From: Chrysoperla carnea
Lineage: Eukaryota > Arthropoda > Insecta > Neuroptera > Chrysopidae
Assembly: GCF_905475395.1 (NCBI RefSeq)
Contig: NC_058341.1
Coordinates: 64,735,501-64,799,500 of the forward strand
DNA: 64,000 nt
Direction: 5' to 3'
Below, one piece after another: positions 2,576-51,352 of this stretch. Under the pieces are notes generated by a model. It made no database searches and was not told the DNA's origin. It saw only the letters and a list, made by a program, of their open reading frames with translations. The translations under genes were made by a program, and so were the position numbers. Each line of letters begins with the position of its first letter. Position 1 is the stretch's first letter.

Positions 2576-2990
2576 TCAGGACGATCTGGCGAACATTTTG
2601 GGGCCGATTTGATAAAATTGCACAGAAAGCCATTTTCTTATCTAATCGTGCGGGGACCAAATTGCAAATATGTATTTTTATCTCCAAGAAAAATGATCTT
2701 CCCGGGATCATCTACAACTTATTTTATTGCTTGTAGTTTATAGTTTCTTAATATGAAGCGAAATTTCTTTTTGCTGCTTTGTAGAAAGAAATCCAATACA
2801 AACATTCGAAAGCTTACATATTTCCCTGTGGAATGTGTTTTTACACATTCTCGTACGAGCTGTTTGGGTCCGGTCTCAAAAATTTTAATTATTTTTTTAA
2901 ATTGTGATTTTTTTTATATCGTATGCATTTCTTGTTTAAAAACCATTTTTAATTTCCAATTTTCTCAAAAAGTAATGAATTAAATTTCAG

Positions 2991-5900
2991 GTATTGAACG
3001 TTTGATTCACGTATCATTTTATGATTCTATTGAAGAAAATATCATTCATTTAGATAAGAAACATATCTATCACACAAATAATACATGGATATCATTTAAT
3101 TTAACTGAAGCTATTCGTCATATTTTAATAACAAACTACAATAATACAACTGCTACCCAACAATTACGTATTGTTATAACAATTGAATCAATAGCTGCAA
3201 ACATTAATAATAATGAAGCATTTAATTTATCATTATTACCATCTGCTGATAAATATCACTATGATGAACATGATTATCCATTATTAGTATTATCATATGC
3301 AAGTAAAGCACATCATCATACTGATACGAGTACTAATGCTGATCAACAAAAACGTGGTTATCAATATCAACGACAACGTGATAAACGTGAAACTGATTTT
3401 ATAGAAGACGAATATGAAGAGGAAACAAATCATTTATGGAATGATCAACAATCAAATAATGGTGGTGGTGGTGGTGGTGGTATGAAACCAGCACAATTCA
3501 AACGTATGCGTCGTTTACGTAACACATGTAAACGACAATCATTGTATATTAACTTTGCTGATATCAATTATGATAGTTGGATCATTCAACCTACAGGATA
3601 CGAAGTAAGAGCTTGTTTTAAGTTATCATATTGGGTGCTTAAACCCTACCAATTCGTTGTGTGCGTAGTCATGGTGGGGATAATAAAATCGATGCCAGCG
3701 CTTTAAGTGAAAAATTTTGGAGATAAAGTGGGCTGTTATGACTAATTTGCAATTATTTACATGTTAATGATATAGAAACTGTCAAATTAAAATGATTGAA
3801 AAACACTAATTAATTAAACTTAATGCATTAAAAATTGTGAAAATAAGAAATTAAATTGTACAAATATTATTTTTCAAATGTTAATTATCGTAATTATTTA
3901 TTTAAATTTGTGAAACAAGAATATTAAATTTTAAATGTAAGTTTTCAATGCAATCCACACAATTATATATGCATCCATTAATTCTATAATTAAAGTAGTG
4001 TATCGTTGTCATGGAAACGAAATTCACGCTCGGAGCGAATAGGGAATAATCATGTATTTTTTTTATATTTTTAATTCATTGTTTACACCGTTATAACATA
4101 GTAAAAAAATATAAATACTGTTTAAAAATGCTGTAATTAAGTGTAAAAAAAAATTTAAAATACAGAATAATTTTGAGATGTTTAAACGCAGTCTTTTGGC
4201 GCTATCTGTTGACGGCGTATTAATATGCGACCTGTCAATTGGTGACAGTTCAATATAGAATTTACACTTTAAAAAAATGAATTTACAACACAGAATTTAC
4301 ACTTGTTATTATTAAGTTTTCTAATAAAAAGTCGTAGAATAATATAACTCAATGTAATATCATACAAAATATAAGTAATTAATAATACCATACAGTATGT
4401 CAACGAATTTGACAAGCCAATCCGTTTTAGAAATTTCGAGTTTCTCTCACTGAATTTGTACTTTTATTAATTAATTTTAAGTAATTAAAAAGATATTAAT
4501 TACTTAAATAATGGTTTAGTTAAAATGTCCAGCCAATTAAGTTACGGAAAAAAAATTTAAATATTATGAATATTCCCTATTAGTCTAGTTAACAAGTTCA
4601 AATTGGTAAAATATAGAAATCATAATCGCAAAAATACGTGTGATAGCTTGTTGGGTTCGGAATGATGTCTTGAAAAAAAGTGCCAGAAGCACTTTTCAAC
4701 ACATAAAAAAATGCAAAAGTTATCAATAATTTTTTTTTACCGTGCTAATTTTAACTATTATCAGTTCTAATAAGAACTATGAATAAAGTGCACATCATGA
4801 TCACTAGATAAAAATCGTGATTTCTGTCTGCCCAATGGAAGACACAAAAATAAAGAATTATATATTAAAATTATTTAAGTACAATTATCACTAGAATGTA
4901 AAATAAATCAAGGTATATTTTAGCTCTAAAATATTAAGTTTATTTAGTCTGTTAAGGTTTCACTATTTTCAAGAAGGTTAAGCACATAAACATTTGAATG
5001 CATTTCTAAACGATACACATAGTTTTAACTAAATCGCACTGTAGACACATTTAAACTACGATGTAAGTCATCGTTTCGTACGTACCATGGTGAATCACTT
5101 ATCGTACGCAGCACTTTGGACTGAAAACCCTGGAAAGTCTCAATGTTACTAACACTTGCAGTGCCCCACAATTGAATACCGTATGTCCATATAGGTTTCA
5201 AAATGCTCTTATACACTAACAACTTATTTTCGAGCGATAATTTAGAGTTACGATTTAGCAACCAGAAATATTTATTAAATACAACAATTTAAGATGAAAA
5301 AAAAGGTATTTCGCCAATTTTTTATTAAATATAAATATTTAAGAAATTTATAAAAATGATTCTTAAAGAGGAGGCAATTTCCAAGATAAAACTTCCACTC
5401 CCGGATGTCTCTATCTCTATTACTTATAATTTACCGCTGAAAATAAGTCTTTTTGCGTCATTTTTAGATTGTGTTGTTATATCGTCAAAACCAGTATCTC
5501 ACAGTAAATAATTTTTTTAAAGATATTAAATATTAAAGAGAATTGAAAAAAATACACTCGAATCAGGACTCGAATCCGGACTTCTTGGATTCATGTCAAG
5601 TGTCATACCAATTAGGCTATTCGCGAGTGTATTTTTTTAAATTCTCTTTAATTAAGATTACTAGACAAGATATTTGTCAATATTTAGTTTACGCCCATAT
5701 GAAGCATATTATATCAAATATAATCGAATAGACCATGATGTAAATATCGTATGCATAATTATAAGTAAACAACAACAAAAAGTAATATTAGGTAAATATT
5801 AATTTAAAAATTTGACAAAAATAATGGCGTAGGTATTCTGAAGACTCTAAAGAATTTATTATCGTTGGAAATTTATTTTATAAAAATCGAATATTATTGC

Positions 5901-8325: not shown

Positions 8326-8734
8326 AAATAAAATTAAGCAAAAATCAGCTAGTCAAAACCACTTTTGGACACCTTCATTGGTCAAAAATACTTTTGACTG
8401 TTTTGTCATTTCAGTCAAAAGTATACTATTACCGAAAGCCTCCGGCCAAAAGTAGTTTTAACTGATTTTGCCTGTTAAAAGTATTTTATCCGGTTGAGAG
8501 TTTTGCCTGTATGGTTTAATGGGGACATTATGTTCTGTCATCTAATTGAACCTAGATTTCCGAGTAGCTTTAACAATCAATTTAGATCCTAAACGGTAAG
8601 AGATAGAATAACAGTTTAAATTAGAAAGTTGATCCTCATAAAAAAACCAACATTTTTTTATTTAATTATTTTTTCGAAAATGGTTAGCTTTAGGAGGTAA
8701 TGCGACTTAAAAATATATCATTATTGCATGTAAT

Positions 8735-9664
8735 CAGTGGTGGATTTACACTAGGGGCTTTCGGGGCTAGTGCCCAGGGCGGCAAATTTTCTAGGGCGGT
8801 AAAATTTGGAAAGTGGAAAAAAGAGATGAAAGAGTATAAAACAACAGTGTCTAGAAAAAGAAAGAGAAAATTACATGCTGATGAATCGCGGGATGGAGAT
8901 GTACAATTGTCAGGTCGAGACCACTTTAGAATCAATACTTTTAATGTCATTCAGAAGATTCAGAAAACGTTCTCAGTTTTAATTGAATTTGGCAATCTGG
9001 ATAATAGAGAGATTCGAAAACGAGCTAAACATTTAAAAAATATTTATTCTTCAGATCTTGAGTCCTCATTAGATGATGAGTTTGTGCACTTCCATGCTTA
9101 TTGCACTGAAAAACAGGTGGAACGAAATTCACCTTCTGATATTCTGAAACATTTACGAGCAAACGACCTTTACACTGAGTTTCCGAACGTAGAAATTGCA
9201 TATCGAATTTTCATTACTTTAGCTGTAACAAACTGTAGCGCAGAACGATCTTTTTCTTGTTTAAAAAGAGTTAAAAACTACTTGCGTTCTACAATGAGTG
9301 CAAATAGACTCAATAGCTTAGCTATTCTATGCATCGAATCGGACGTACTTCAACGTTTGAATTGTGATGATTTAATCGACCAATTTGCAAATCAAAAAGT
9401 CAGACGTGTTTGTCTGTGAAAAAAATTATTGTTATATAATTATGAGTCAAGCTTAGTGCAAAATTTGTAGTTCTAAGAACAAAAACATATTTTCTTACAT
9501 TATATTGAGTATATAATAAGCATAATAAATTATTTGCAATTCATTAAATATTTTAATTTTTTTTAAATAAGATATCAAATCTATATAACTTTGAGTGAAA
9601 TTTCAGTGATGGGGCGGCATTTATTCGACTGCCCAAGGGCGGCAAAATTTTAAATCCGGCCCTG
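8735..9664 (+). mobile_element. Internally deleted hAT transposon with 8-bp target duplication
   Basis: Ends CAGTGGTGGATTTA and TTAAATCCGGCCCTG form imperfect terminal inverted repeats. Flanks CATGTAAT (8727-8734) and CATGTTAT (9665-9672) agree at 7 of 8 positions, the hAT target length. GGGCGGCAAA-type subterminal repeats occur at both ends. Confidence 0.85.
8790..9419 (+). pseudogene. hAT transposase C-terminal remnant
   Basis: Open frame inside the hAT element (the longer frame starts in the flank at 8700, so the true start is unknown). The last 100 residues are a hAT dimerisation domain: FPNVEIAYRIFITLAVTNCS, AERSFSCLKRVKNYLRS, then NSLAILCIESDVL and a terminal KVRR. The zinc-finger and DDE-containing N-terminal parts of a full hAT transposase (600 or more residues) are missing, so it cannot transpose by itself. 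Confidence 0.8.
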
Positions 9665-10732: not shown

Positions 10733-11359
10733 TTACATAGCTGTGTTGAGGACGTTGAGGTTAGTTTTGTCAAGTTAAAAATATTATTTTTTTTTTTTTT
10801 CGATATCATAAAACGAAATAAAAGGAGCACAGTCTATAAAAAATGAATGGTAAGGAAGTTTTAAATTTTGAATTGCAATTGGTTTATATATAATTTATTT
10901 ACAATATTTATTTTTATGGTAAATAAGATTTAGATGAAAATGTGAAAATTGAAAAATTATGTCTTAGAAATAAAAATTAAATATGTAGAAAATGATGAAA
11001 TGTTTGAGGAATTTTATTCATCTAACAATGTGAGTGAAATATGTAACAATGTCGAGACTAATAAAATGAAAATTGAAAAAGAATTGCATTCAGAACTCAT
11101 AATTAAAGATGAGGATTATGATGAAATGTTCGAAGAAACTGAAACTAGACACAAACGACTTCATGCTGGGGAAAAACCTTATGTATGTGATGAGTGTGAT
11201 AAAGCATTTAGCCAACGGATTAATTTAGTTCAACATAAACGACTTCATACTGTTGAAAAACCTTTTCCCTGCGATATCTGTGATAAAAAATTTACACAAA
11301 AAATCTATTTATTTCTTCACAAACGGACACATACTGGAGGAAAACTTTTATTTTTGTTA

Positions 11360-12023
11360 TGGCACGCCATTTTACTATTTAATGTCCGAAAAAAAATGAT
11401 CGCAATAATAATACATTATTATTATGTTATCATCATAATAATAATCATTTTCATTATGTACATAATTTTAATTCAATCATTTTTATTATGTACATAATTT
11501 TAATTCAATCATTTTTATTATGTACATAATTTTAATTCATATTAAATAGTAAAACGGCGTGCGATATATTTCCATTATGTACATAATTTTAATTCAATCA
11601 TTTTTATTATGTACATAATTTTAATTCTCTATTTCCATTATGTACATAATTTTAATTCAATAATTTTTTTTAAATCTAATTCAAATAAAATTAACTGATT
11701 TATTATTATGTATCATCATAATAATAATACATTTTTATTATGATGATAACATAATAAAAATGTATTATTATTATGTATCATCATAATAATAATACATTAT
11801 TATTATGATGATACATAATAAAAATACATTTTTATTATGTTATCATCATAATTTTAATTCTCATCTCTCTTTTCTCATCCTATCTTATATCAATCTCTCT
11901 TTTACTAAGATTTATTTTACAAAATATATAATATAAAATATAAAATTTCTGATTGAAAAAAAATAATTAATTAATTTTTTTCTCGATAAAAATTTGCCTA
12001 TTAAATAGTAAAATGGCGTGCCA
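11360..12023. mobile_element. TA-flanked DNA transposon with minisatellite core inside the zinc-finger pseudogene
   Basis: Termini TGGCACGCCATTTTACTATT and its reverse complement (ending GGCGTGCCA at 12023), with TA on both outer sides. A third, slightly mutated copy of the terminus sits inside at about 11543-11570. The core has about six units of a 32-base repeat containing ATTATGTACATAATTTTAAT (about 11441-11660), then interlocking ATTATTATG/CATAATAAT palindromes to 11850. No transposase. Confidence 0.7.
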
Positions 12024-16659: not shown

Positions 16660-16894
16660 CTAATAATAAGTAAATGATGCTTCTTCATCTGCACCGATAT
16701 TAAATGGTGTTGCTAGTAACAATCTGGATATTTTATGAATTGATTTATTTAAATAATTAGAATATTTCATAATTTCTCCATTTTTTAAATTATTTTCTTT
16801 CGGATTATATATGTATTTTAACACTACGTTTTTTCCTATCTGTTGCCCTTCTTTGTTTGATGTATCGTAATGCTTTATCTGAAGTTTCCCTTTC
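16660..16894 (-). CDS. Candidate terminal coding exon, unrecognised protein
   Basis: Minus-strand open stretch ending at a TAG (16660-16662). A TTTTTAAG acceptor just above 16894 would start the exon; the open frame runs slightly further to 16914. The peptide (for example KNVVLKYIYNPKENNLKNGE and ISRLLLATPFNIGADEE, ending SFTYY) has balanced protein-like composition, unlike the shadow frames nearby. No family recognised and no partner exon located upstream. Could be a decayed gene. Confidence 0.35.
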
Positions 16895-17339
16895 CTTAAA
16901 AACCATACAAACATATTAAAAAAACAGCGTAAATTTAAAGTAAATCAACTCATCAAATTAAATTAGACCCGGTAAAATTTGTCATTGAGCATGAATATAA
17001 TTTTCGCATGGAAAATTTTTGCAGAATCCCGTTTAAAACATGCTCCTGAACGTAAAAGTGAAGGTTGCCGGGGGTAACTCGGTAGGATATTGCTTAAACT
17101 AATTTTTTTTAAACATATTAAAAATATTGACTGAATTGCTTCGAAATATATATTTTATCATATAATTGAGGCTCAAATTAACAAAAAATGTTCTTCGGTA
17201 TTTTTTGTCTAATAACAAAAAATTAAATTTAAATAATTTTTTTAACTAATTGATTATAAAAAATCAATGCAGAATACATTTTATGTGAAACTTAAAAAAA
17301 ATAACGTAAAAAATTAAAGGCGGATGAAACTTTCCCATC

Positions 17340-18228: not shown

Positions 18229-18572
18229 AAATGTTCTCTTGCTCAAAAAAAGTCTTTATTGACTTTATGACTTAAACACGACGAACAAAAGTTTGAAACA
18301 TCCCCCTTCCCCCCCTTCTGGATGATTCCTCTGCAGGAGCTTGCCGAAAATTTAACATAAAAATTAATTTTACCATTGGTTCACGGAAAATAAATATGAC
18401 TATAGATATGTTTTTCGAAATCTTTTTATCAAATGATTTATCAATGAATGAAATATTATAAATTAAAAAAACTTAGAAAATGGAATAGAAATATCTTGGA
18501 TTGGAATGATTTGATCAGTATATTTCAACGAGTATTGGCGTATCATGGATAAAATTAATTTACGAAACGAAT

Positions 18573-19668
18573 GACAAAATTGTTATCAGAAAACAAAAAA
18601 TACGTTTTTATAGAAGAAAAAAAGCCAAGAAATATAGCGTTTTATGTTCACAGCTAATCAATGGCTAAGTTACCAGAGAAAATTCACAAAAGTAAAAAAA
18701 AAACGGTTTTCATGCGATTAAAAACAAGTTAAAGTCCAATGCACAAAAATTAAATGGGAAAGTTCTAGATCTCAAAAAAACTTATCGATTGACGTCTGGT
18801 AAGTCCGATTTGGATGAGTAGATGCGAGAAAACTAGAAAAAAATGAGCGAAAATAGTCGTTTTTACATTTGCTTATATCTTTTTTTCTTTTTCGATTTTA
18901 AAAGTGCTATTTAATGAAGCTATGAGTAATCGACGGTTGACAAATCTTCAATTTCCCGTTGGTAGAGGGACTTTTTTGAGCATGATATTTTAGCAGCAAG
19001 TGAAAGTTTTTAATTTTTGATTCCGAAATCGAGTAACGAAAAAGTGCATTTCTTGGGATGGGTTTTTCGGTAAAAAGTAAAATTGCTAGAGCTCTGAAAC
19101 TTGCACACTTAACTAATAAAAACTTACTAAATATTTTTAAAAAAATTTGCAATTGTTATCGTTCGTGTAACGGCAGCCATGATCCCGTTAAAATCGAGAG
19201 TTTCTGCATCGCAAAAAATGCACTTTTTTCGAGGCCCGATTTCGGCACCAGAAATGGAAAATTTTTACTTGCTATTTCAGTAGCATTATGCTCGAAGAAT
19301 ATTTCAAAATTACTCAGTAACTATTACTCATAACTTCACTAAATAGCAACTTTAAAATCAAAAAAGAAAAAAGCTATAAGCAAATGTAAAAACTATTGCT
19401 CATTTTTTCACGTTTTCTCGACATCTACGTATCCAAATCGGAATTACCAGACGTCAATCGATTGGTTTTTTTGAGATCTAGAACTTTCCCATTTAATTTT
19501 TGTGCATTGGAAGTCATATTTTTTTTAATCGCAAGAAATGTTTTTTTGACTTTAGCAAATTTTCTGTTAACTTAGGCATTGATTAACCGTAAATAAAAAA
19601 CACTATGTTTCTTGGCTTGTTTTCTTCTATAACACATTTATTTTTTATTTTCTGATAGCAATTTTATC
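18573..19668. mobile_element. 1.1 kb palindromic foldback element
   Basis: Nearly continuous inverted repeat: GACAAAATTGTTATCAG at the left pairs with CTGATAGCAATTTTATC at the right, and TTAAATGGGAAAGTTCTAGA pairs with its complement near 19480. Pairing continues inward to an apex near 19060-19190. No coding; frames within are mirror shadows. Ends about 130 bases from the protamine-like gene. Confidence 0.75.
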
Positions 19669-19800
19669 AAATTTAACATTGGGCCCTCCGTAGATTAATT
19701 GGATTATAGATTATAATGTGAAAGTCAATATCTCAAATTTCACAAAAATTACTGGCTGACTGGCCGTTGGCTATAATTACATCATTAAAAATATTTCACT

Positions 19801-20283
19801 TTACCTAGGACTCTTATAATTGTATTCTTCACGTTCTTCGTCACTCATATCATTCCAGATACGTCCTGCTTCTGCAGCAATATTAACAATATTCCTATTA
19901 CATCCACATTTACGTTTATACGCACTTAAAAAGTTCATGAATGCATTTGAAGATGTATTACAATCAGAGGGAGTTATTGCTGCTTTATTACACTCTACAC
20001 ATCGACATTTGTTACAACCACAACTACAGCTTTTTGCACATGGACTCTGGCCACATACCACACATACTCCTGGTTTACAGTATTTAACTCGACGTCGTGA
20101 TCTTCTACGTATTGACCTTCTTCTGGTTGGGCATGGGCTTCTTCGGCGTGGTCTTGAACAACTTCTACGCCTTCGATATGGAGATCTTGAACGTCTTCGT
20201 CGACTCCTCTGCATTCTTCTCCGTCGTGGCTTACAACAGCCACAGGAACAGACTTGGGCATCTAATGAAGTATGCGAAGCCAT
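19801..20283 (-). CDS. Protamine-like sperm nuclear basic protein with C-terminal MST-HMG box
   Basis: Single-exon frame of 160 residues. Residues 20-65 hold 27 arginines in RRRR/RRRS blocks broken by Ser-Pro, as in protamines. Nineteen cysteines occur in total, clustered as CSCGCC (12-17) and a second cluster at 69-98 (CKPGVCVVCGQ, CSCGCNKCRC), suited to disulfide or zinc cross-linking. Residues about 112-156 (SSNAFMNFLSAYKRK, then AAEAGRIWNDMSDEEREEY) match the MST-HMG box of Drosophila Mst35B/Mst77F-type sperm chromatin proteins. Inferred role: replacing histones in spermatid nuclei. Start chosen at the first ATG (20281-20283), stop TAA at 19801-19803. It sits just beyond a 1.1 kb palindrome. 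Overlapping frames on both strands are shadows of the repetitive arginine codons. Testis expression is inferred, not shown. Confidence 0.85.
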   Translation of the reverse strand: MASHTSLDAQVCSCGCCKPRRRRMQRSRRRRSRSPYRRRRSCSRPRRRSPCPTRRRSIRRRSRRRVKYCKPGVCVVCGQSPCAKSCSCGCNKCRCVECNKAAITPSDCNTSSNAFMNFLSAYKRKCGCNRNIVNIAAEAGRIWNDMSDEEREEYNYKSPR

Positions 20284-23089: not shown

Positions 23090-23226
23090 CTATACTAAAT
23101 CTTCAAAACATTTGAATTTTTTTATCTTGTCAAGCTCATCTAAGAGCCACTCTTTTAGTTTATCTTTGCCAAGTTTTTCATTTTTACAATAAAATATTAA
23201 ACCATTTTTTGAATCATAAATCAGTC
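23090..23226 (-). CDS. Candidate terminal coding exon, unrecognised protein
   Basis: Minus-strand exon-like stretch after a good acceptor (poly-T then GTTTGTAG, plus-strand 23227-23234), starting with two bases of a split codon and ending in TAG at 23090-23092. The 44 residues include LIYDSKNGLIFYCKN and KEWLLDELDKIKKFKCFEDL: alternating hydrophobic strand then charged helix, protein-like. Upstream exons would lie above 23226, possibly with the basic 160-residue gene inside the intron. Family not recognised. Confidence 0.4.
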
Positions 23227-23718: not shown

Positions 23719-23922
23719 AACTAGATGTCGAAACCTTCGTTTATTTTAGTTTTTTCTAGCCTTTGAATAAGTTTATGAAATAGCTTTTTTCAGTTATTTT
23801 GAGCGGCCTAAAAGTAAATGATTTGAAGAAATTCTTGAGGAAAACTTTATTAACGAAATTAATCACATAACATTTAAAAATAAAATGAAAATAAATTAAC
23901 CAAAAATTCACGAATTTAAATT

Positions 23923-24405
23923 TTAGAATTGTCTATTCATATCATTTGCTATTCTTTCTGCACTATCTGTAAACGCTTGAATAATTTCGCGAGCCTCTTC
24001 AGCTGTCATTTTATTTTGTTGTGCTTTTTGAGTTCGTTTTTTCACTTTTGTAAGATGTCGGTTTTTTTTACCTTTGGTACTTTCTTCATTAGTATTCGTG
24101 TTATTATTGTAGCAGTTATGATCAGAAGAACGTTTTGATTTCAAATGATTGTGAATACGGTTACTTTTCAACTTGGATGATGATCTATAATTATAATGAT
24201 CTGTGGATGGTTTTCTTATTCTTGATGAGCATCCACAAGTTCTATTTCGTTTATTATTATTATTATTATTACAACGTGGTCCTCTACGTACATGTTTTCT
24301 ATTGGCAATGTCTACGGATTCCACAGAACTTTGATTTGAAGCTCTACGTACTTGTTTTGTATTGTCAATATCTACTGATTCCACAGAATCTTGATTTGAA
24401 GCCAT
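23923..24405 (-). CDS. Basic Asn/Lys/Arg-rich 160-residue protein, unrecognised
   Basis: Single-exon frame with the same length (160 residues), strand and opening (MAS) as the protamine-like gene 3.6 kb away. Residues 2-21 and 22-41 are a tandem duplicate of a 20-residue unit (ASNQxSVESVDIxN...VRR), visible in the DNA as a 60-base duplication. The middle is low in hydrophobics and rich in Asn, Lys, Arg and Ser with a six-Asn run; about residues 115-130 read KGKKNRHLTKVKKRTQK; the C-terminal 28 residues (MTAEEAREIIQAFTDSAER...) look like an amphipathic helix. This could be a rapidly evolving sperm chromatin or transition-type protein; that is inference from composition and neighbourhood. The helical tail is not a clear HMG box. 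It could also be a chance frame, but uninterrupted length and internal repeat argue against it. Confidence 0.6.
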   Translation of the reverse strand: MASNQDSVESVDIDNTKQVRRASNQSSVESVDIANRKHVRRGPRCNNNNNNKRNRTCGCSSRIRKPSTDHYNYRSSSKLKSNRIHNHLKSKRSSDHNCYNNNTNTNEESTKGKKNRHLTKVKKRTQKAQQNKMTAEEAREIIQAFTDSAERIANDMNRQF

Positions 24406-36610: not shown

Positions 36611-37057
36611 GTAAAAAACCAAAAATTTGATTTCAAAAAATTTAGAAAAGAACCAAAAAAAAAAATTTTTTTTTCTTAAAAAGAGGAGATGCAAAATGGA
36701 AATAGAAGTTTGTGTAGAATCATTTACTGTGTTTTTATTAATCAAAATAAATAATAAATTTAAATTATTATTTTATAATAATAAAATTAAATAATAACAT
36801 CCGATTCATTCGTTCAATGACTTATTGAATGTAGGTTTTGTAAATCATCCATATCTATATATAAATAAGCGATTTACCACTGACTGACTCATCACGAAAT
36901 CTCCGAAACTATCGGCCCGATTAACTTCAAATATCGCCTACTTACCTCTTTCGTGACATAGACGCTCACTAAGATCGGATTTTACGAAATTCCTATCCCA
37001 AGGGATTTTCTGTATTTTATAAGTCTTTAGATACAGTCATAAAGGTAGAAGATACTG

Positions 37058-37532
37058 TTCACTTTACTGTCGAGTTTCTACACACACTCAACCCACCGGG
37101 AATACCACCTCATATTCTTCATCTAAAAATTGGTGCACCAATAATGTTGTTGCGTAATTTAAATCCCCCAAAATTGTGTTATGACACCAGACTACGAGTA
37201 AAAACCATGCAAAGAAACGTTATCGAAGCAACAATTTTTACAGGAAAGTAGGAGGGGAAAGTGTATTCATTCCGAGAATCCCTCTGATTTCATCGGACTA
37301 TCATTTTGAATTTCAGCTTTTGTAGTTTCCAGTAAAATGTTGCTTTGCGATGACTATCAATAAGGCACAAGGTCTGAGTTTAAAATTAGCCGGTGTAGAC
37401 TTACGAAGTGACTGTTTTTCTCATGGTAAATTTTATGTGGCGTGTTTAAGAGTGTGTTCACCTGAGGATCTCATCGCTCTCCAACCAGATAAACGTACGA
37501 AGAATGTAATTGTTTACAGAGAAGTTTTGTAA
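37058..37532 (+). pseudogene. Helitron PIF1-like helicase C-terminal remnant
   Basis: Reads VEFLHTLNPPGIPPHILHLK and IGAPIMLLRNLNPPKLC, then MTINKAQGLSLKLAGVDLRS and SPEDLIALQ (37350-37532). MTINKAQGQ(S/T) and the CSRVGSPEDL-like block are PIF1 helicase motifs of Helitrons. In-frame stops in the 5' half (after IFTGK and before MTINKAQ) show decay. Confidence 0.75.
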
Positions 37533-42603: not shown

Positions 42604-45600
42604 ATGTCAAACGTAAGTAGAATTTACAATATTTTTTTAAAACTTATACAATATTACGAGAGTGATACCCACCCGCTTCGCTGGGTTTAAAAGTGAAGAT
42701 TGATGAAGATTGCTCTCGCATATCCCCTTTCTATAACACTCGAAAAAAATGGTAAGGATTGTTTTACACAGATAAAATATATGTATGGTTTTCTATTTTT
42801 TTAAATATATAATAGTAATTATTCATTGAGTATATCAGAGAAGATGGTCGTGAAATATTTTATATTGACTATTTTTACAGAAATGTAATTTATGGTAATG
42901 TCAAATGACTACTTTTACAGAAAGCTGTAATTTATGATAATGTCAAACTAAACTAATTTTTAAATTTTTTTAATTTTTTTATTAATATGTCTTATATAAA
43001 TTATAAATTATATCTCATGTGTTATTCTGATATATCAGCTATATTGCTGTACAGTTTCATTAAAAACCATTCGCTAGTTTTAACGTGAAAGCGTAACAAA
43101 CAAACAAACAAACATGCTTACTTTCGCATTTATAGTATATAGAGATAGAGATAGAAATAGAGAAGAGATTACCCTAGCAAGTTTTTTTTCTGTACTACCC
43201 TTATCTTCGGTCTAAAAATGAAATACGCCAAATAAATAATTTTAACGAAAAAATATTATAAATTTAAATAATAAGTTTATTAGACAAACATGTTAGTTTT
43301 TACAGATGCTCCACTAATACATCTAGACATATAATTACTATTTTTAAAACATGTTCTCCTAATATTAAGTTAAGGTCCTTTGACTTTTTTTACGATTTTT
43401 GGCGATTATAGAATGCGTTGATATATTTTATTGTGTTTAAAGCGTGCTTTTGACAGCTGATTCCCTTATTTATTTAAAAAGAGTGCTCTCCTGTGTTGTT
43501 GATATTTGTAATTTTTAACCGACTTCAAAAAAGGAGAAGGTTATCAATTTGGCTGTATTTTTTAATGTTTGTTACCTCAGAACTTAATTTGACTGGGTGA
43601 ATCAATTTTGATTATTCTTTTTTTATTTGAGAGCTAGAGCTACTATTTCAATTTGGTCCAGTTCTAACAATAGCATCCATGAGAAAATCACAAAGAAAAA
43701 AGCTTTTAACAAATAAAAAATAATAAAACTATTCCAAAACAAATTAATATGAACTAAAATGTAAAAAAATAACGATAACATAATGTAGTTACAATTATGC
43801 TTATTTTTGGCTCGGTGTCAGCCAAGTTAATGTAGCAAACTGTTCTGTCACAGTTGTTTCCTTGGCTGACACCGACTCCAAAAATAGCAGAAAATTGTAA
43901 CCACATTATATTTTACTTTTTAGTACATTTTTTTGAAGCCGGTTTTTTTTTTGTCATTGGTTTTTTTTAATATGGTGTTTTTATTGTAAATTTTGTACTT
44001 TATCGTGTTATTTTTTTCTTGTAAAATGGAACAGACTCTCATTCTTGATGAATGAGATAAATGAGAATGAGAATGATGAATTGAACAGACTCTCATTCTT
44101 GATGTACATTGTTGCCGAAATTCCCAGTTCAGCCATCCAAATTTAATGTATTCGTATATTTATTTCTCATTCTTTTTTTACTTTTTGTCCTCCTTCAAGA
44201 ATTTCATATAAAATAACATTTTCTGAATTACAACGAGACATTACATCTGTATAACATTCTATATCTATAAAGTGAGCTATAAAAAGGTTCCAATTAAAAT
44301 CGGTAGATAGAGTCTTCCTTAGTAGGATTGTCGAACATGGAAAACATTTGTTAAATTTCTATATTATCGAATATTTTCAGAGATCGTTACGTATTGCCAT
44401 TATTGGACAAAGTGTCTTCGCAGCAGAAGTATTTAAACAACTTGTAGACGGTGGTCATGAAATTGTTGGTGTATTTACAATTAAAGATAAAGGAAATCGT
44501 GAAGATCCTCTAGCTATTACTGGAAAGGAATACAATGTACCTGTATTCAAAGTGGCAGCATGGCGTAAAGCTGGTAAACCAATTCCCGAAATATTAGAAC
44601 AGTATCAATCGGTGAATGCTGATTTAAACGTTTTACCATATTGTTCACAATTTATTCCAATGGAAGTTATTGATTATCCACCATTAAGAAGTATTTGTTA
44701 TCATCCGTCTATTTTACCACGGCATCGAGGAGCCAGTGCTATTAATTGGTAAATATTATCTATATTCCTTACTTTACAGGATGTCTTTTTTAATTTGACA
44801 CATACTGGAAACTCGAAAAATAAGTTTTATCGATAAAAATGCTTCAAGCGAAAAATGTTGGCGCACATCTTTCACAGATATTAAAGTTTTCAAGCTCAAT
44901 AAAGAGCTAATTATACTTCATAACTGGTAACAGACAGATGAATACTATAAATTAGAAAGATATGATTGAAAAGGTAACATTTTTTTGTTCGAAACCGTAC
45001 AGTTTTGGCAAAAACGGGTAAAAAATGTTTACCCTAAATTGATTTTTCGTATCAAAATTGTTATTTCGTATAATTGTTTCTGGGAAATCTAGGCACTCTT
45101 CGAAAAACTTTTTCAATAAAACCAGTAAGAGTGGTTTACTTTTCTATAAAGACCATTTTTGTTTAAATTGAATAAACAAACGCACAAAAAGCTATATTTT
45201 TGCTATCAATTACTGCCTAAACTATTCAGTTTACAAAAAAATATTTCAAACAAAATTTACTTGACTATTTATAAAGAACAACTTTCTAATTTAAAGCTTT
45301 CATCTAATGTTTGTTAGTTGATAAGTCTATGAATCAGAGTGTGGTTTTAATTGAACCTGAAACCTTAGGTCGGATTCGATGCCAGTATAAGTTATATGCC
45401 TTTGAAACTAACATCTTTCTTTTGAAGCATTTTCCTCGATTAAATTTATTTTTCGAGTTTCAAGCATATGTCAACTTAAAAAACAAGCATATGTCAACTC
45501 AACAATTTGCAGTTCCTTTAATTTTAATACTTTTTTTTTGTTATTATAGGACGCTTATGTGTGGAGATAAAGAGGCCGGCTATACCATATTTTGGGCTGA

Positions 45601-48600
45601 TGATGGCTTAGATACTGGCCCAATTTTATTACAAGAATCATGCAAAGTCTTACCAACAGATACAGTCGACACGTTATACAATCGGTAAATACACTTTTGA
45701 CTTTTAGAATCTTCCTGTTTCATTGCAGAACTGTATAAAAATCAATGAGTCCCCCACAAGCAGTCACGGATTAAATGGTAATGGCGCCCTAGACCCAAAG
45801 AAGAGACCTAGTGAATGGTATTCCTTATTCACCCTGGGCACCAGATACCTCGTAGACCAGTTCTGTCACGATATTTGTGTTCAGCGACCCCACAAATCCA
45901 CGAGTAACAAGTTTCGAATCATTTTCATCACTATTAACCCAATTGTGAATTTAATATATTTACGGTCATAATTTAAAATGCATATTATTTATATAAACTG
46001 CATATTTTTAATTTCTTATAAAACAATTTAGGTCACAAAATTTCCTGACACTCTAACGAATCGAAAACCACATTCAAATCCGTCTTACTGTTGAAATTTT
46101 CGAATTTTAGTGAATCGAATTAAAAGTAAACACCTTACTATTTAGGTTAGGTTAGGTTATATTGGCTGTCCACGAAGGACACACTTAGGCTATAGAGCCC
46201 ATTGTGATACCATATATGTGTTTTGTCACCTTTCCGCTGATAATTACATTTATCAGCTACTTATTTATTTTGAGAGGCTGAGTGCACCTTCGTCATTCAT
46301 ACTATGCACAACACCAGCCCATCACAACTATTAATTTTTTGTGTGACGGCGAGAATCGAACCTGTTACCTTAGACATACCCGAACGAAATTGGTTACGCT
46401 ATTTGGTCCGTTTTCTAAATTTGGTATGTTAAAAAATTATTTTTATTTAAACTTTTATTTCTTTTAGATTCTTGTATCCGTCTGGAATTGATGGAGTGGC
46501 CAGAGCTGTTGATATGGTGGCAGATGGATCCGCTCCAAAAATTCCCCAAACAGAAGTTGGGGCAACTTATGATCCAATGCTAAATAAAAAAGAATTGCAA
46601 AAGGTATTTTATAAAAACTATTTCTCAACTTAAATAGAATTTTATTTTATTTATAATTAATATTACAGATTGATTGGTCAAAGTCTGGTCTAGAAATCTA
46701 TAATTTTATTCGTGGGATGGATTCTGTACCAGGTGCATGGTCTCAAATTGAAATTGAAAATGATAATGAAAAAGTAATAGAAGAAGTCCGATTGTTTGGT
46801 GCAAGTTACGATGTCGATACAAAGTTTATAAAAGGCAAAGAAATACATGTTTTAGAAATGTGTGGAACTGGTATTGTCCATGAAAATGGGCTTATTGTAT
46901 TTGGAAGTGATGGCGTTGCTGTAAGTTTTACTTAATTTTACACATGTTGTACCAATAAAATAACCCCCCCCTCTATGTACGAATTTATGACGTGTGTATT
47001 TATGATGTTGATGTTATCATCTAGTTTAAGATTTTAGTGGTATCTTGTCCATTATACCTACATTATACCTGAAAAAAACGTAATTGAAACGAGCAGACCC
47101 GTGCACAAGGGGATCTTTGGAGGGTCAACTCCACCTCCATTGAACATCTTTCCTCATAAATTTGAACTAACAATATAGCGAACAAACAGTTGGTTTGTCC
47201 CCTTACCAACAAAATGAAAATTGTTTTGAAGTCTCTTTCGCTCAACTTTTTGAGTCATACTTTTCAATTTTGCACGATGATTCCCGTGATAAATGGGTCG
47301 ACGAAGTTCAACTGTAGAGAAAACAAATTGCCGAACCGGACGTCAAAAATTCACTCGAAGCACTCGATATTTGCTCTGAAGTTTTGCCTGTATTTTTCTC
47401 TACCTCATAAAAATTCACTCTACTCCTTTTTTCATAACTTGCTAAAAAAATATAACTTCAATAATAACAATTGTTGTTTGAAACATTTGTTCGAAAACTA
47501 CTTGACCTCTAAATTTTCTTGTAAATTCGAACGTGGGATCCACTGTTACTATTGATCCAATATTTTAATATTCATAATAATAAGTATCGATATATTTATA
47601 GATAAATATCCAAAGAGTCAAAGTTGGTACAAAAATGATAACTGCAAATAAATTAGGCCAAAAAAGTGATGTACAAAATAATTTGGTACTAACTCCTGAA
47701 GAGGAGAAGATTATTAATACGATCAACAATATTTGGTCATCAATATTGAATATCGAAGTTGATGAAGATACAGACTTCTTTGCCTCTGGTGCTGGATCCA
47801 TGGATGTAGTTCGGTAAGTAATGAAATTTTTATGCCTAAATTTTATAGTTTTCTATTGACACCCGCTTGAGTATTAGGAGACCAGGCAATTCTTGCTGGC
47901 GAAGGTATTTATTTAATAAAAACTGTATCTAATTTTTAGATTAGTTGAAGAAGTTAAAGATGAAGTACAAGTTGAAATAGAAAAAGATGTCGTTTTCTTG
48001 GCAACTACATTTTCTGAATTTTGTAATGCAGTGATTCTTCTTAAACGTAGTGGAGGAAAAGTTGAAGAAGAAATTGTTTATGATGCTGTTGAATTAAACA
48101 TAAACAAAAAACATTTAAAATTCCCTCGACAATTGTTCATTAATGGCAAATTTGTAAATTCTGAAAGTGGCAAGAAAACACCAGTAATCAACCCTGCAGA
48201 TGAAAGCATTATATGTGAAGTTGAGTGTGCATCAGAAAAAGATGTCAACGCAGCAGTTGCAGCTGCTCTTCATGCCTTTAAGGAAGGCGAATGGTCAAAA
48301 ATAAGTGCCAGAGAACGTGGGGAATTACTAATGAAATTAGCTAACCTTATGGAAGAACATTGTGAAGAATTAGCAACATTAGAATCAATTGACTCCGGCG
48401 CTGTGTACACGCTTGCCTTAAAAACTCACGTAGGCATGAGTATTAACACCTGGAAATACTTTGCTGGATGGGCAGATAAAATTCAAGGAAATACAATTCC
48501 AATTGCTAATGCTAGACCTAATAAAAACTTAAGTTTTACAAAAAAAGAGCCTATTGGTGTTTGTGCATTAATAACACCATGGAATTATCCTTTAATGATG

Positions 48601-51352
48601 TTGTCCTGGAAAATGGCAGCTTGTTTAGCGGCTGGTAATACTGTCATAATAAAACCAGCACAAGTTTGCCCATTAACAGCTTTAAAATTCGCTGAATTAT
48701 CCGCAAAAGCCGGGATACCTCCCGGTGTTATAAACGTTTTAAGTGGTACTGGTTCGGGAGCTGGTCAAGCATTAGCCTCACATCCTGATGTTCGCAAATT
48801 AGGGTTTACAGGAAGTACCGAAATTGGAAAAGTGATAATGAAATCTTGTGCAGATTCAAATTTGAAGAAAGTTTCACTTGAACTTGGTGGAAAATCACCA
48901 TTGGTAGTTTTTGCTGATTGTGATTTAGATAAAGCTGTTCGCTTGGTATGTAAATTTATTCCAGAAAACAAGGTCTAAAATTAATAATAATAAAAATTTC
49001 TTTTTAGGGTATGCAAAGTGTATTTTTCAATAAAGGTGAAAATTGTATCGCAGCAGGAAGGATTTTCGTCGAAGAAAGTATCCATGATAAATTTGTACGA
49101 AAAGTAGTTTCAGAAACTAGAAAAATTAAAATTGGAGATCCGTTAAATCGTGCAACGTCGCATGGACCTCAAAATCACTTAGCTCATCTTAAAAAGTTAA
49201 TTGAATATTGTGAAATTGGGGTGAAAGATGGTGCAACTTTAAAATATGGAGGCCGAAGATTACCTCGTCCAGGATTCTTCTTTGAACCTACCGTATTTAC
49301 CAACGTGACTGATGACATGTTTATTGCAAAAGAAGAATCATTTGGACCAATTATGATTATTTCTAAATTTAAGGATGGGTGAGTTTCTAAAATTTTTTAA
49401 ATTTCATTAAAATTTGTCCATGTTACAAAAAGATTTAAAATTTGAGCCAACAGAGCTGATAGGCTTTTAGTACAGTTTTGAGTATACAGTGTATTTAATT
49501 AAACAATTAATTCAGTTAGTTGTTATTTATATTTGTTAATGTATATGTATATATTTGTTACTCTAGTGATGTGGATGGTGTAATAAAACGTGCTAATAAT
49601 ACAGAGTATGGTTTAGCTTCTGGAGTATTCACATCTGATATGTCAAAAGCTTTAAGATTTGCAGATGCTATTGAAGCTGGTACAGTATTTGTTAATACAT
49701 ACAACAAAACAGATGTTGCTGCACCTTTTGGTGGTTTTAAACAATCTGGTTTTGGAAAAGATTTAGGTAAATAAAACATTATATCTAATAATAAGTAATC
49801 TTAAACACGTCAAATGCGCCACTATTATGTAGATAATAGGACGGGTCCAAAATTCTTTTTAAATTAAAATGTGTAATGAATTTCTTTTGATGCTTTATGG
49901 GTGTTCCTCTATGATAATCGTGTAATGCACTAAAATCTTAGAATTTAGCAGTTAAAAAAGCCTGCTCGCCAATGTGTAGCCAACCGCGATTTGTCTGGCG
50001 AACCGTAATGCTGGTTGCATATACAAATTAACTTTTAATTATATTTTAAATGTCTCTCTGTCTCATAATAATAAACAGTAATGACTGTGTTCGTTAGATA
50101 CAACATTGTTGTTGTTATAGGTCGTTTAAACCAAAGTGGTACCGATAAAAAGAGAGAGTGTAGATTTTAGTGCACATACATATACATATCTACACTATCT
50201 TTTGCTCATAGCTGCAGGGACTGACTAATATGTATAACTAACTGCGCCCCGCGATTAAAAGAGAGTCGTGTTACCCGCAATTAAAAAAAGATTTTGAGAG
50301 TTTTTATCGTTACTGTGTACATTAATCAAGCCTTCTTGAGAAAAATGCTCTAAAAATCTATTTCACGAACTTTTACAAAATCCTTTAAAAAATATGAATC
50401 CTGTATGCTATCCCATAGGAACCGTGCATTTTCCGGGATAAATAAATTAGCCTGTATCATTTTCTGATTCCTAAACTACCACTATCTATGCAAAAAAAAT
50501 CATGCCCATCCTTTGCTCTATGAAAAATTAAAACAAATCTATCCCACGAGAACCAAATTTCATCCAGATCTGTTCAGCCGTTCTGGCGTTATTGGTATCA
50601 AACATTCATCCATCCAAATATAATAGTCAGACCGAGTTCGACAAGCGGGTTTGCAGGCTCGTTTGCCGAGCGGGGCCGCCAATGTGTGGGCTCGGCCTCC
50701 CGCCGAGCGAGTTCGCCAATGAATGATGTACTTTAAAGATCAATATTTTTGTAATCCTTTGATATCCTGGGTTAAGCTGTGTATATGAGCAACTTCGGAT
50801 AGATATTTAAAAAAAAAAACGAGTGTGCTTTAGACCACACGACTCAAGTAATACTTGTTTAGCTCCGTCTTTTTTTTAAATATACATGAGCTGGTTTTGA
50901 ACGCTGGTCTCCGATTCCAGTGTTCTGCCACTAAGCTACTGAGTGTGTAATATTTTATATACTTATAAGTAGTATGACATAGATCTTGCTATGTTGTTGA
51001 AACGTAACTCCTCCTCTATCTTCACTAACTTATATCTTCCTCTCAACTTGATCACACTTTTCCTAACAAGCTTGATCACACATTTAACATCGTAACATCA
51101 TACATTCTCCAGTTCACTCCCCAAGTCAAGCGAACCTAAAGAAGTTGTTTATACCATTTAATATACCAGCAAAAAAAAGGTGATCTGATATCAAAAAGCT
51201 ACTTGAAGCCATTGTTAAACAATTTCAGAAAAAATTTATTTTTATTTATAGAATGACATGTTTTGCTTTTATTGCAATTTAAAATTTTATTTTCAGGTAT
51301 GGAAGCGTTAAATGAATACTTAAAAACTAAATGTGTAACAATAGAATATTAG
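42604..51352 (+). CDS. ALDH1L1: Cytosolic 10-formyltetrahydrofolate dehydrogenase, complete 10-exon gene
   Basis: Converts 10-formyl-THF to THF and CO2 with NADP+. Exons: 42604-42612, 44381-44748, 45550-45684, 46468-46603, 46669-46920, 47602-47813, 47940-48945, 49008-49378, 49567-49766, 51297-51352; all have GT..AG introns and the phases join without error, giving 914 residues (human protein about 902). Exon 1 encodes only MSN. The N-terminal formyl hydrolase carries His111 and Asp147 (in DDGLDTG). The middle acyl-carrier segment has its phosphopantetheine serine at 366 (GAGSMDVV). The aldehyde dehydrogenase half has Glu685 (LELGGK) and Cys719 (KGENC). The protein ends KCVTIEY. Introns 1, 3 and 9 hold transposons; no coding damage was seen. 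A mitochondrial ALDH1L2 reading is less likely because no leader precedes the hydrolase domain. Confidence 0.96.
42661..43145 (-). mobile_element. Non-autonomous Helitron in ALDH1L1 intron 1
   Basis: Minus strand begins TCTATATACTATAAATGCG, AAAGTAAGCATGTTTGTTTG and ends CCCAGCGAAGCGGGTGGGTA. The exact 3' end is unclear because the CTRR terminus is mutated. Starts about 50 bases after the three-codon first exon. Confidence 0.6.
43150..43430 (+). mobile_element. Partial non-autonomous Helitron
   Basis: CTAGCAAG, TTAGTTTTTACAGATGCTCC and ATTACTATTTTTAA blocks match the 1240-2283 family, plus orientation, lacking the 3' end. Abuts the Helitron at 42661-43145. Confidence 0.5.
43516..43947 (+). 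mobile_element. Hairpin element B, second copy, in ALDH1L1 intron 1
   Basis: TAACCGACTTCAAAAAAGG start, TTGAAGCCGGTTTTT end. The stem and the loop TTAATGTAGCAAACTGTTCT are nearly identical to the copy at 10117-10732 although the 5' half is shorter. Confidence 0.65.
46144..46416 (-). mobile_element. tRNA-derived SINE in ALDH1L1 intron 3, ending in telomere-like repeat
   Basis: Minus strand: AGCGTAACCAATTTCG (A-box side), GGTTCGATTCTCGCC (B box), a GGTGCACTCAGCCTCTC body and an AACCTAACCTAACCTAAA end. A related, diverged copy is at 30070-30235. Confidence 0.65.
50480..50640 (+). repeat. Non-LTR retroposon 3'-end-like fragment
   Basis: ACCAAATTTCATCCAGATCT, GTTCAGCCGTTCTGGCG and AACATTCATCCATCCAAATA resemble insect RTE-type 3' ends. 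Within ALDH1L1 intron 9. Confidence 0.4.
50812..50950 (-). mobile_element. tRNA-derived SINE in ALDH1L1 intron 9
   Basis: Minus strand: CTCAGTAGCTTAGTGGCAGA (A box) and GCGTTCAAAACC (decayed B box), then a tail GAGTCGTGTGGTCTAAAGCA ending in a T-run. Confidence 0.6.

Follow-up and report, generated by a model that had tools for sequence, protein, structure and literature searches.

What kind of protein joins, within a single short chain, a run of arginine resembling a protamine, dense clusters of cysteine and a box of the HMG type? The question is raised by a locus of the green lacewing Chrysoperla carnea on autosome 5, where a 64-kb stretch (C5:64735501-64799500, hereafter the window) was analyzed and found to hold, on the minus strand, an intact open reading frame (ORF) of 160 codons that starts with ATG, stops with TAA and occupies 64,755,301-64,755,783 of the chromosome (Table 1). 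Few insect sperm packaging proteins outside Drosophila are of known sequence. The initial annotation of this locus had proposed a protein that compacts sperm chromatin, and we favor the reading that the ORF encodes a sperm nuclear basic protein (SNBP) of the lacewing, with a probability of roughly 0.72. The protein is read as a packer of sperm DNA because an Arg-rich block, a dense Cys cluster and a box similar to that of fly protamines are combined in it.

Composition and coding potential of the ORF

The predicted protein has a mass of 18.6 kDa and an isoelectric point (pI) of 10.6, and contains 33 Arg, 9 Lys, 19 Cys and one Trp. The counts reported earlier were reproduced, namely 19 Cys among 160 residues and 27 Arg among the 46 residues of the Arg block (residues 20-65; 59% Arg), and the two Cys clusters were located at residues 12-17, with four Cys, and at residues 69-98, with 10 Cys per 30 residues in CxC and CxxC spacings. 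Residues 20-67 carry a net charge of +28, compared with 0, +3 and +1 for the remaining three parts of the protein. An Arg block, Cys clusters and an HMG-type box form a composite architecture.

The frame is open without a stop upstream to 20307, and the guanine-plus-cytosine (GC) content at its three codon positions is 0.39, 0.63 and 0.23 (0.39, 0.50 and 0.21 past the Arg block). The length of the ORF alone is only moderately unusual and constitutes weak evidence, since an ATG-initiated ORF of at least 160 residues was present in one of 40 simulated 64-kb windows (order-1 Markov). Its composition is extreme and constitutes strong evidence against chance: when the protein was shuffled 20,000 times, its Arg clustering was never reached and its Cys clustering 232 times, and the next highest Arg density among the 370 stop-to-stop frames of at least 46 residues in the window was 13 Arg in 46, found in a frame antisense to the ORF itself. 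For an antisense ORF of 163 residues Pfam listed nothing at E<=10, and this frame is apparently a by-product. The 160-residue ORF is a real gene candidate.

A C-terminal domain of the MST-HMG type

An HMG-like C-terminus had also been described from the sequence, and by Pfam, the controls and Foldseek it scores above background. When the protein was cut into three pieces that were scanned separately against Pfam, the isolated residues 96-160 exceeded the curated cut-off of PF06382 (Protamine_like; 23.9 vs. 21.3 bits, E 5.2e-5), in a match that takes in profile positions 80-129 of 183 only, and remained below that of HMG_box (21.7 vs. 25.4 bits), with DUF1289 as a weak additional row (E 0.1). 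The other two pieces, including one of 30 residues over most of the second Cys cluster, had no match at E<=10. Ordinary HMG boxes taken as controls (fragments of SSRP1 and HMGB1) scored 63.3 and 80.5 bits with HMG_box, and PF06382 was listed for neither; none of five shuffles of the domain matched PF06382 or HMG_box.

The HMG_box match spans profile positions 6-53 of 69, and the protein ends three residues further on; judged from this alignment, and assuming no further exon, the HMG-type box is truncated. Residues 142-154 read IWNDMSDEEREEY. In the predicted structure the domain consists of three helices with the arrangement seen in HMG boxes (mean predicted local distance difference test score, pLDDT, 76), and HMG-box proteins made up 41 of the 46 Foldseek rows obtained with this model, none of them at E<=0.001. 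SSRP1 is the best solved relative, and Met116 sits where the solved SSRP1 box has its Met. This three-helix domain is the sole confidently modeled part of the protein: the AlphaFold2 model of the whole length (mean pLDDT 47.5; residues 1-34 and 36-110 below 50) is uninformative beyond the box, and the region of the Arg block (residues 21-70) has 10-residue means of 33-38 and neither predicted helix nor strand.

Two results weigh against the PF06382 match. PF06382 is absent from the Pfam list of the whole protein at E<=10, which leaves it outside the family by the formal Pfam rule, and a genome scan with the same profile left the candidate locus unreported. We suspect the HMMER composition filter behind the missing whole-protein match. 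The expectation that the protein would be recognized by the HMG-box and MST-HMG models therefore holds for the isolated C-terminus with PF06382 and fails for HMG_box, which stays below its cut-off with the whole protein as well (E 0.0018, 19.1 vs. 25.4 bits). The other whole-protein rows, DUF2457 (E 0.19) and TT_ORF1 (E 1.4), are at noise level, and NCBIfam returned sub-cut-off matches only (E 0.2 for the domain). Because the whole protein is unlisted for PF06382, what is claimed here is an MST-HMG-type domain, and the protein as a whole is not put forward as a formal member of the family.

Copy number and searches beyond the locus

The C. carnea assembly (559,487,470 bases, 337 contigs) was searched with the whole protein, with residues 96-160 and with residues 1-66, and only the candidate locus was found at E<=10; one candidate was scored in each search, so distant paralogues could be missed. 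The sole PF06382 match in the genome, on C1, lay below the cut-off (E 1.87) in an open frame of 55 residues, with neither an Arg block nor a Cys block within the translated stretch, and the profile had no matches in any of 14 control genomes. The 48 pattern matches in viral contigs included no relative. Scans for bacterial promoters and terminators, for tRNA and against Rfam found nothing and have little bearing on an insect gene. An NCBI annotation exists for the inChrCarn1.1 assembly (PMC10116181) and may already list the candidate gene.

Proposed role in sperm chromatin and alternative explanations

The proposal of a sperm chromatin protein agrees with the Arg and Cys richness, which would suit an SNBP (PMC5122968; PMC9917458), and with a C-terminus that passes the Protamine_like cut-off; by analogy with known sperm proteins, we infer its expression and sperm role, together with its location, DNA binding and cross-linking. 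The protein would be made in spermatids and imported into the nucleus, where it would replace histones or transition proteins. Its 46-residue Arg block, judging from the sequence, would neutralize the charge of the DNA backbone, and the Ser-Pro and Arg-Ser sites in the block may be phosphorylated to time the loading, while the truncated HMG box, given its fold and Met116, would anchor the protein and bind or bend DNA. The two Cys clusters could lock the chromatin by disulfides between proteins or by zinc until reduction in the egg. Such locking is suggested because dithiothreitol (DTT) acts on sperm chromatin in Drosophila, whose sperm nuclei it decompacts and where Deadhead, a thioredoxin of the egg, unlocks them (PMC5122968), and in crickets, where DTT decondenses sperm chromatin and the SNBPs are described as unidentified (PMC10345107). 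Zinc bridging is cited as an alternative to disulfides for human sperm (PMC5122968). Proteolytic cleavage is also possible, since Mst77F is cleaved at its N-terminus (PMC5133442) and the SNBPs of bees and other insects appear to derive from precursors (PMC12216123). A version of this scheme that we regard as tentative, with a minor share of the probability, is that of an HMG-anchored protamine precursor, in which the MST-HMG box and Cys cluster would deliver and anchor the protein and an Arg-rich protamine would be cut free.

It is unlikely, though conceivable, that the protein is instead a transition protein, found in spermatid chromatin only after the histones and before the final protamines and no longer present once sperm are mature. 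Drosophila has HMG-box SNBPs that are not kept in mature sperm, namely Tpl94D, tHMG-1, tHMG-2 and CG30356 (PMC9917458), but the 19 Cys suggest a covalently locked final product and the Arg content is like that of mature protamines, neither point being decisive. A chromatin or RNA-binding protein that acts elsewhere than in sperm, its Arg-Ser region being SR-like and accompanied by an HMG box, is improbable: the Arg-Ser and Ser-Pro motifs within the Arg block, the weak similarity to HMG_box and the place of SSRP1 as best solved relative would suit it, but the Pfam lists contain no RNA-binding domain at E<=10 (the HMMER filters drop many weak matches) and the isolated domain lies over the Protamine_like cut-off and under that of HMG_box. 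Moreover, SR or HMGB proteins do not usually have as many as 19 Cys.

Flies have Cys-rich male-specific tail proteins, and clusters so rich in CxC could belong to a structural sperm protein or a metal-binding one (of the sperm-tail Cys-Gly-Pro or metallothionein-like kind) in which the basic and HMG parts are incidental. We consider this very improbable, as the Cys piece has no metallothionein or other Pfam match at E<=10, and the 46-residue Arg block and the HMG-type domain point to DNA. That the frame is a chance or decaying ORF and no working gene is hardly credible; the equally long ORF in the simulations and a transposon-like palindrome directly downstream would be in keeping with it, but a domain over a curated cut-off lies within the same open frame, the composition is extreme, and the GC content drops at third positions relative to the other two.

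Gene end, neighboring features and the remainder of the window

The SNBP candidate ends at a stop codon that is overlapped by a donor-like CCTAG/GTAAAG, the +5 and +6 bases of which we take to be off the usual donor consensus. Eight pyrimidine-rich candidate acceptors lie within 6 kb past the stop and would give tails of 2-22 residues, the least bad being that at 17208 (10 residues). A second coding exon was not adopted because of the +5 and +6 bases and because no tail extends the box convincingly, and a spliced last exon past the stop codon is unlikely. Farther downstream on the same strand, approximately 2.9 kb away, an ORF of 84 residues (16660-16914) matched no Pfam family at E<=10.

Approximately 130 bases past the stop starts a palindromic element, which is not part of the protein and is a probable non-autonomous transposon. 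Within this element, at 19649 and 19642, lie the earliest minus-strand AATAAA signals past the stop, so judging from these signals the poly(A) site of the candidate gene may come from the element.

Table 1. Positions of the candidate gene, its parts and adjacent features in the window (position 1 is the first base of the window)
Feature	Position	Strand	Basis
ORF, 160 residues, candidate SNBP	19801..20283	-	ORF list, composition
N-terminal Cys cluster CSCGCC, residues 12-17, 4 Cys	20233..20250	-	sequence
Arg block, residues 20-65, with Ser-Pro and Arg-Ser motifs	20089..20226	-	composition and shuffles
Second Cys cluster, residues 69-98	19990..20079	-	sequence, shuffles
MST-HMG-type (protamine-like, truncated HMG) domain, residues 109-159	19807..19959	-	Pfam, predicted fold, Foldseek
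Antisense ORF, 163 residues	19820-20311	+	ORF list
Palindromic inverted-repeat element, probable transposon	18572..19669	.	self-complementarity, main arms 73-90%
Neighboring basic ORF, 160 residues, pI 10.3	23923..24405	-	ORF list, composition

A neighboring basic ORF lies 3.6 kb upstream of the candidate gene on the same strand and has its own AATAAA at 23851. It is rich in Asn, Lys and Arg, with a 20-residue repeat near the N-terminus noted by eye. Its whole protein had no Pfam match at E<=10, its last 39 residues gave two matches below cut-off, and its NCBIfam match (E 0.0087, 16.3 bits) was below the cut-off of 45. It has no meaningful similarity to the candidate and is not a detectable paralogue; it is possibly a second spermatid or testis protein. 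On the same strand, 23090-23226 is a possible terminal exon, with the acceptor-like TTTGTTTGTAG ahead of it (by eye) and an open Lys-rich tail of 44 residues to the stop.

Elsewhere in the window, all on the plus strand, are an exon of a TGF-beta type ligand at 2984-3706 (PF00019 over cut-off), a hAT transposase dimerization region at 8694-9419 (PF05699), a coding stretch with C2H2 zinc fingers at 10946-11497 (PF13465, PF00096), a piece of a Pif1-type helicase at 36973-37251 (PF21530), which we presume to be perhaps Helitron-derived, and at 44276-48978 the exons of a gene for a formyl transferase and aldehyde dehydrogenase protein (PF00551, PF00171), which we take to be ALDH1L-like.

Comparison with known sperm proteins

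The Mst35Ba/Bb protamines, Prtl99C and Mst77F are grouped as the MST-HMG-box SNBPs of Drosophila (PMC8284685), which, like the lacewing protein, are described as small, with a pI >10, Cys-bearing and equipped with one truncated HMG-type box (PMC5133442; PMC9917458). The truncated box is apparently specific to fly SNBPs, in which Arg and Lys are balanced, in contrast to the Arg-rich protamines of mammals (Kimura and Loppin, PMC5133442). With 160 residues and a pI of 10.6, the lacewing protein falls within the Drosophila-type limits of <200 residues and pI >10; it shares the mark of the truncated box because its box ends early, and departs from the Arg/Lys balance of flies because it has 33 Arg vs. 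9 Lys. It further differs from these proteins in its uninterrupted protamine-like Arg block, its 19 Cys of 160 residues, including the 10-Cys cluster, and the position of the box at the extreme C-terminus. Outside Drosophila, the protamine A/B-like CPIJ004430 of Culex was reported from each of three sperm proteome samples (PMC9934393); this species is also dipteran. The nearest described case outside flies met in the literature search is LOC103316943 of Nasonia vitripennis, a testis-expressed protein with a pI of 10.7 and a C-terminal HMG box that was likened by its authors to ProtA/ProtB (PMC13148410); they did not rank it among their top SNBP candidates, and the comparison made here is by description only.

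Canonical protamines are given as 50-110 residues long with up to 80% Arg (PMC13148410), whereas the lacewing protein has 160 residues and 21% Arg overall, so only residues 20-65 are protamine-like. The Arg-rich protamines of other insects (Apis P1/P2, Tribolium and the fishfly Parachauliodes) have Arg clusters and are apparently cut from longer precursors (PMC12216123); they are set apart here by description and not by sequence, the term HMG being absent from the main text of that paper. The fishfly proteins were extracted with HCl, and one of them weighs 5.8 kDa when mature (PMC12216123), a value to which the approximately 6.2 kDa calculated for a released lacewing Arg block bears a numerical likeness only. 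In the protamine-like (PL) SNBPs, which occur in Hymenoptera and in other animals, a folded DNA-binding domain is combined with 30-50 disordered residues rich in Arg/Lys, and in some organisms this part is released by cleavage (PMC13148410). Their folded domain is a winged helix like that of histone H1, placed near the N-terminus in the wasp, whereas the lacewing protein has a C-terminal HMG-type box; no linker-histone family appeared in its Pfam lists at E<=10, nor with it the winged helix that would mark a PL (histone H1-derived) protein.

A 2024 study of six species terms itself the first attempt at insect SNBP sequences (PMC12216123), and further work concerns a wasp (PMC13148410). The main text of a paper on lacewing sperm does not use the word chromatin (PMC10464168), and a literature search, to which most subscription papers were inaccessible, met no report of an SNBP from Neuroptera, the combination of Chrysoperla and protamine yielding only a single paper, unrelated by title. 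Among the literature matches listed, none described an Arg block, dense Cys and an MST-HMG box in one protein. These three features, with the Arg block in its canonical form, are treated as separate solutions in the literature consulted, and the candidate joins them; it offers, in an order for which the literature searched describes no SNBP, a testable candidate for the origin of fly-type protamines. If the precursor scheme were true, the protein would represent a third architecture beside the winged-helix PL proteins and the naked Arg-rich protamines, and the MST-HMG proteins of flies and the Arg-rich protamines of other holometabolan insects could share a composite ancestor, from which each would have lost a different half.
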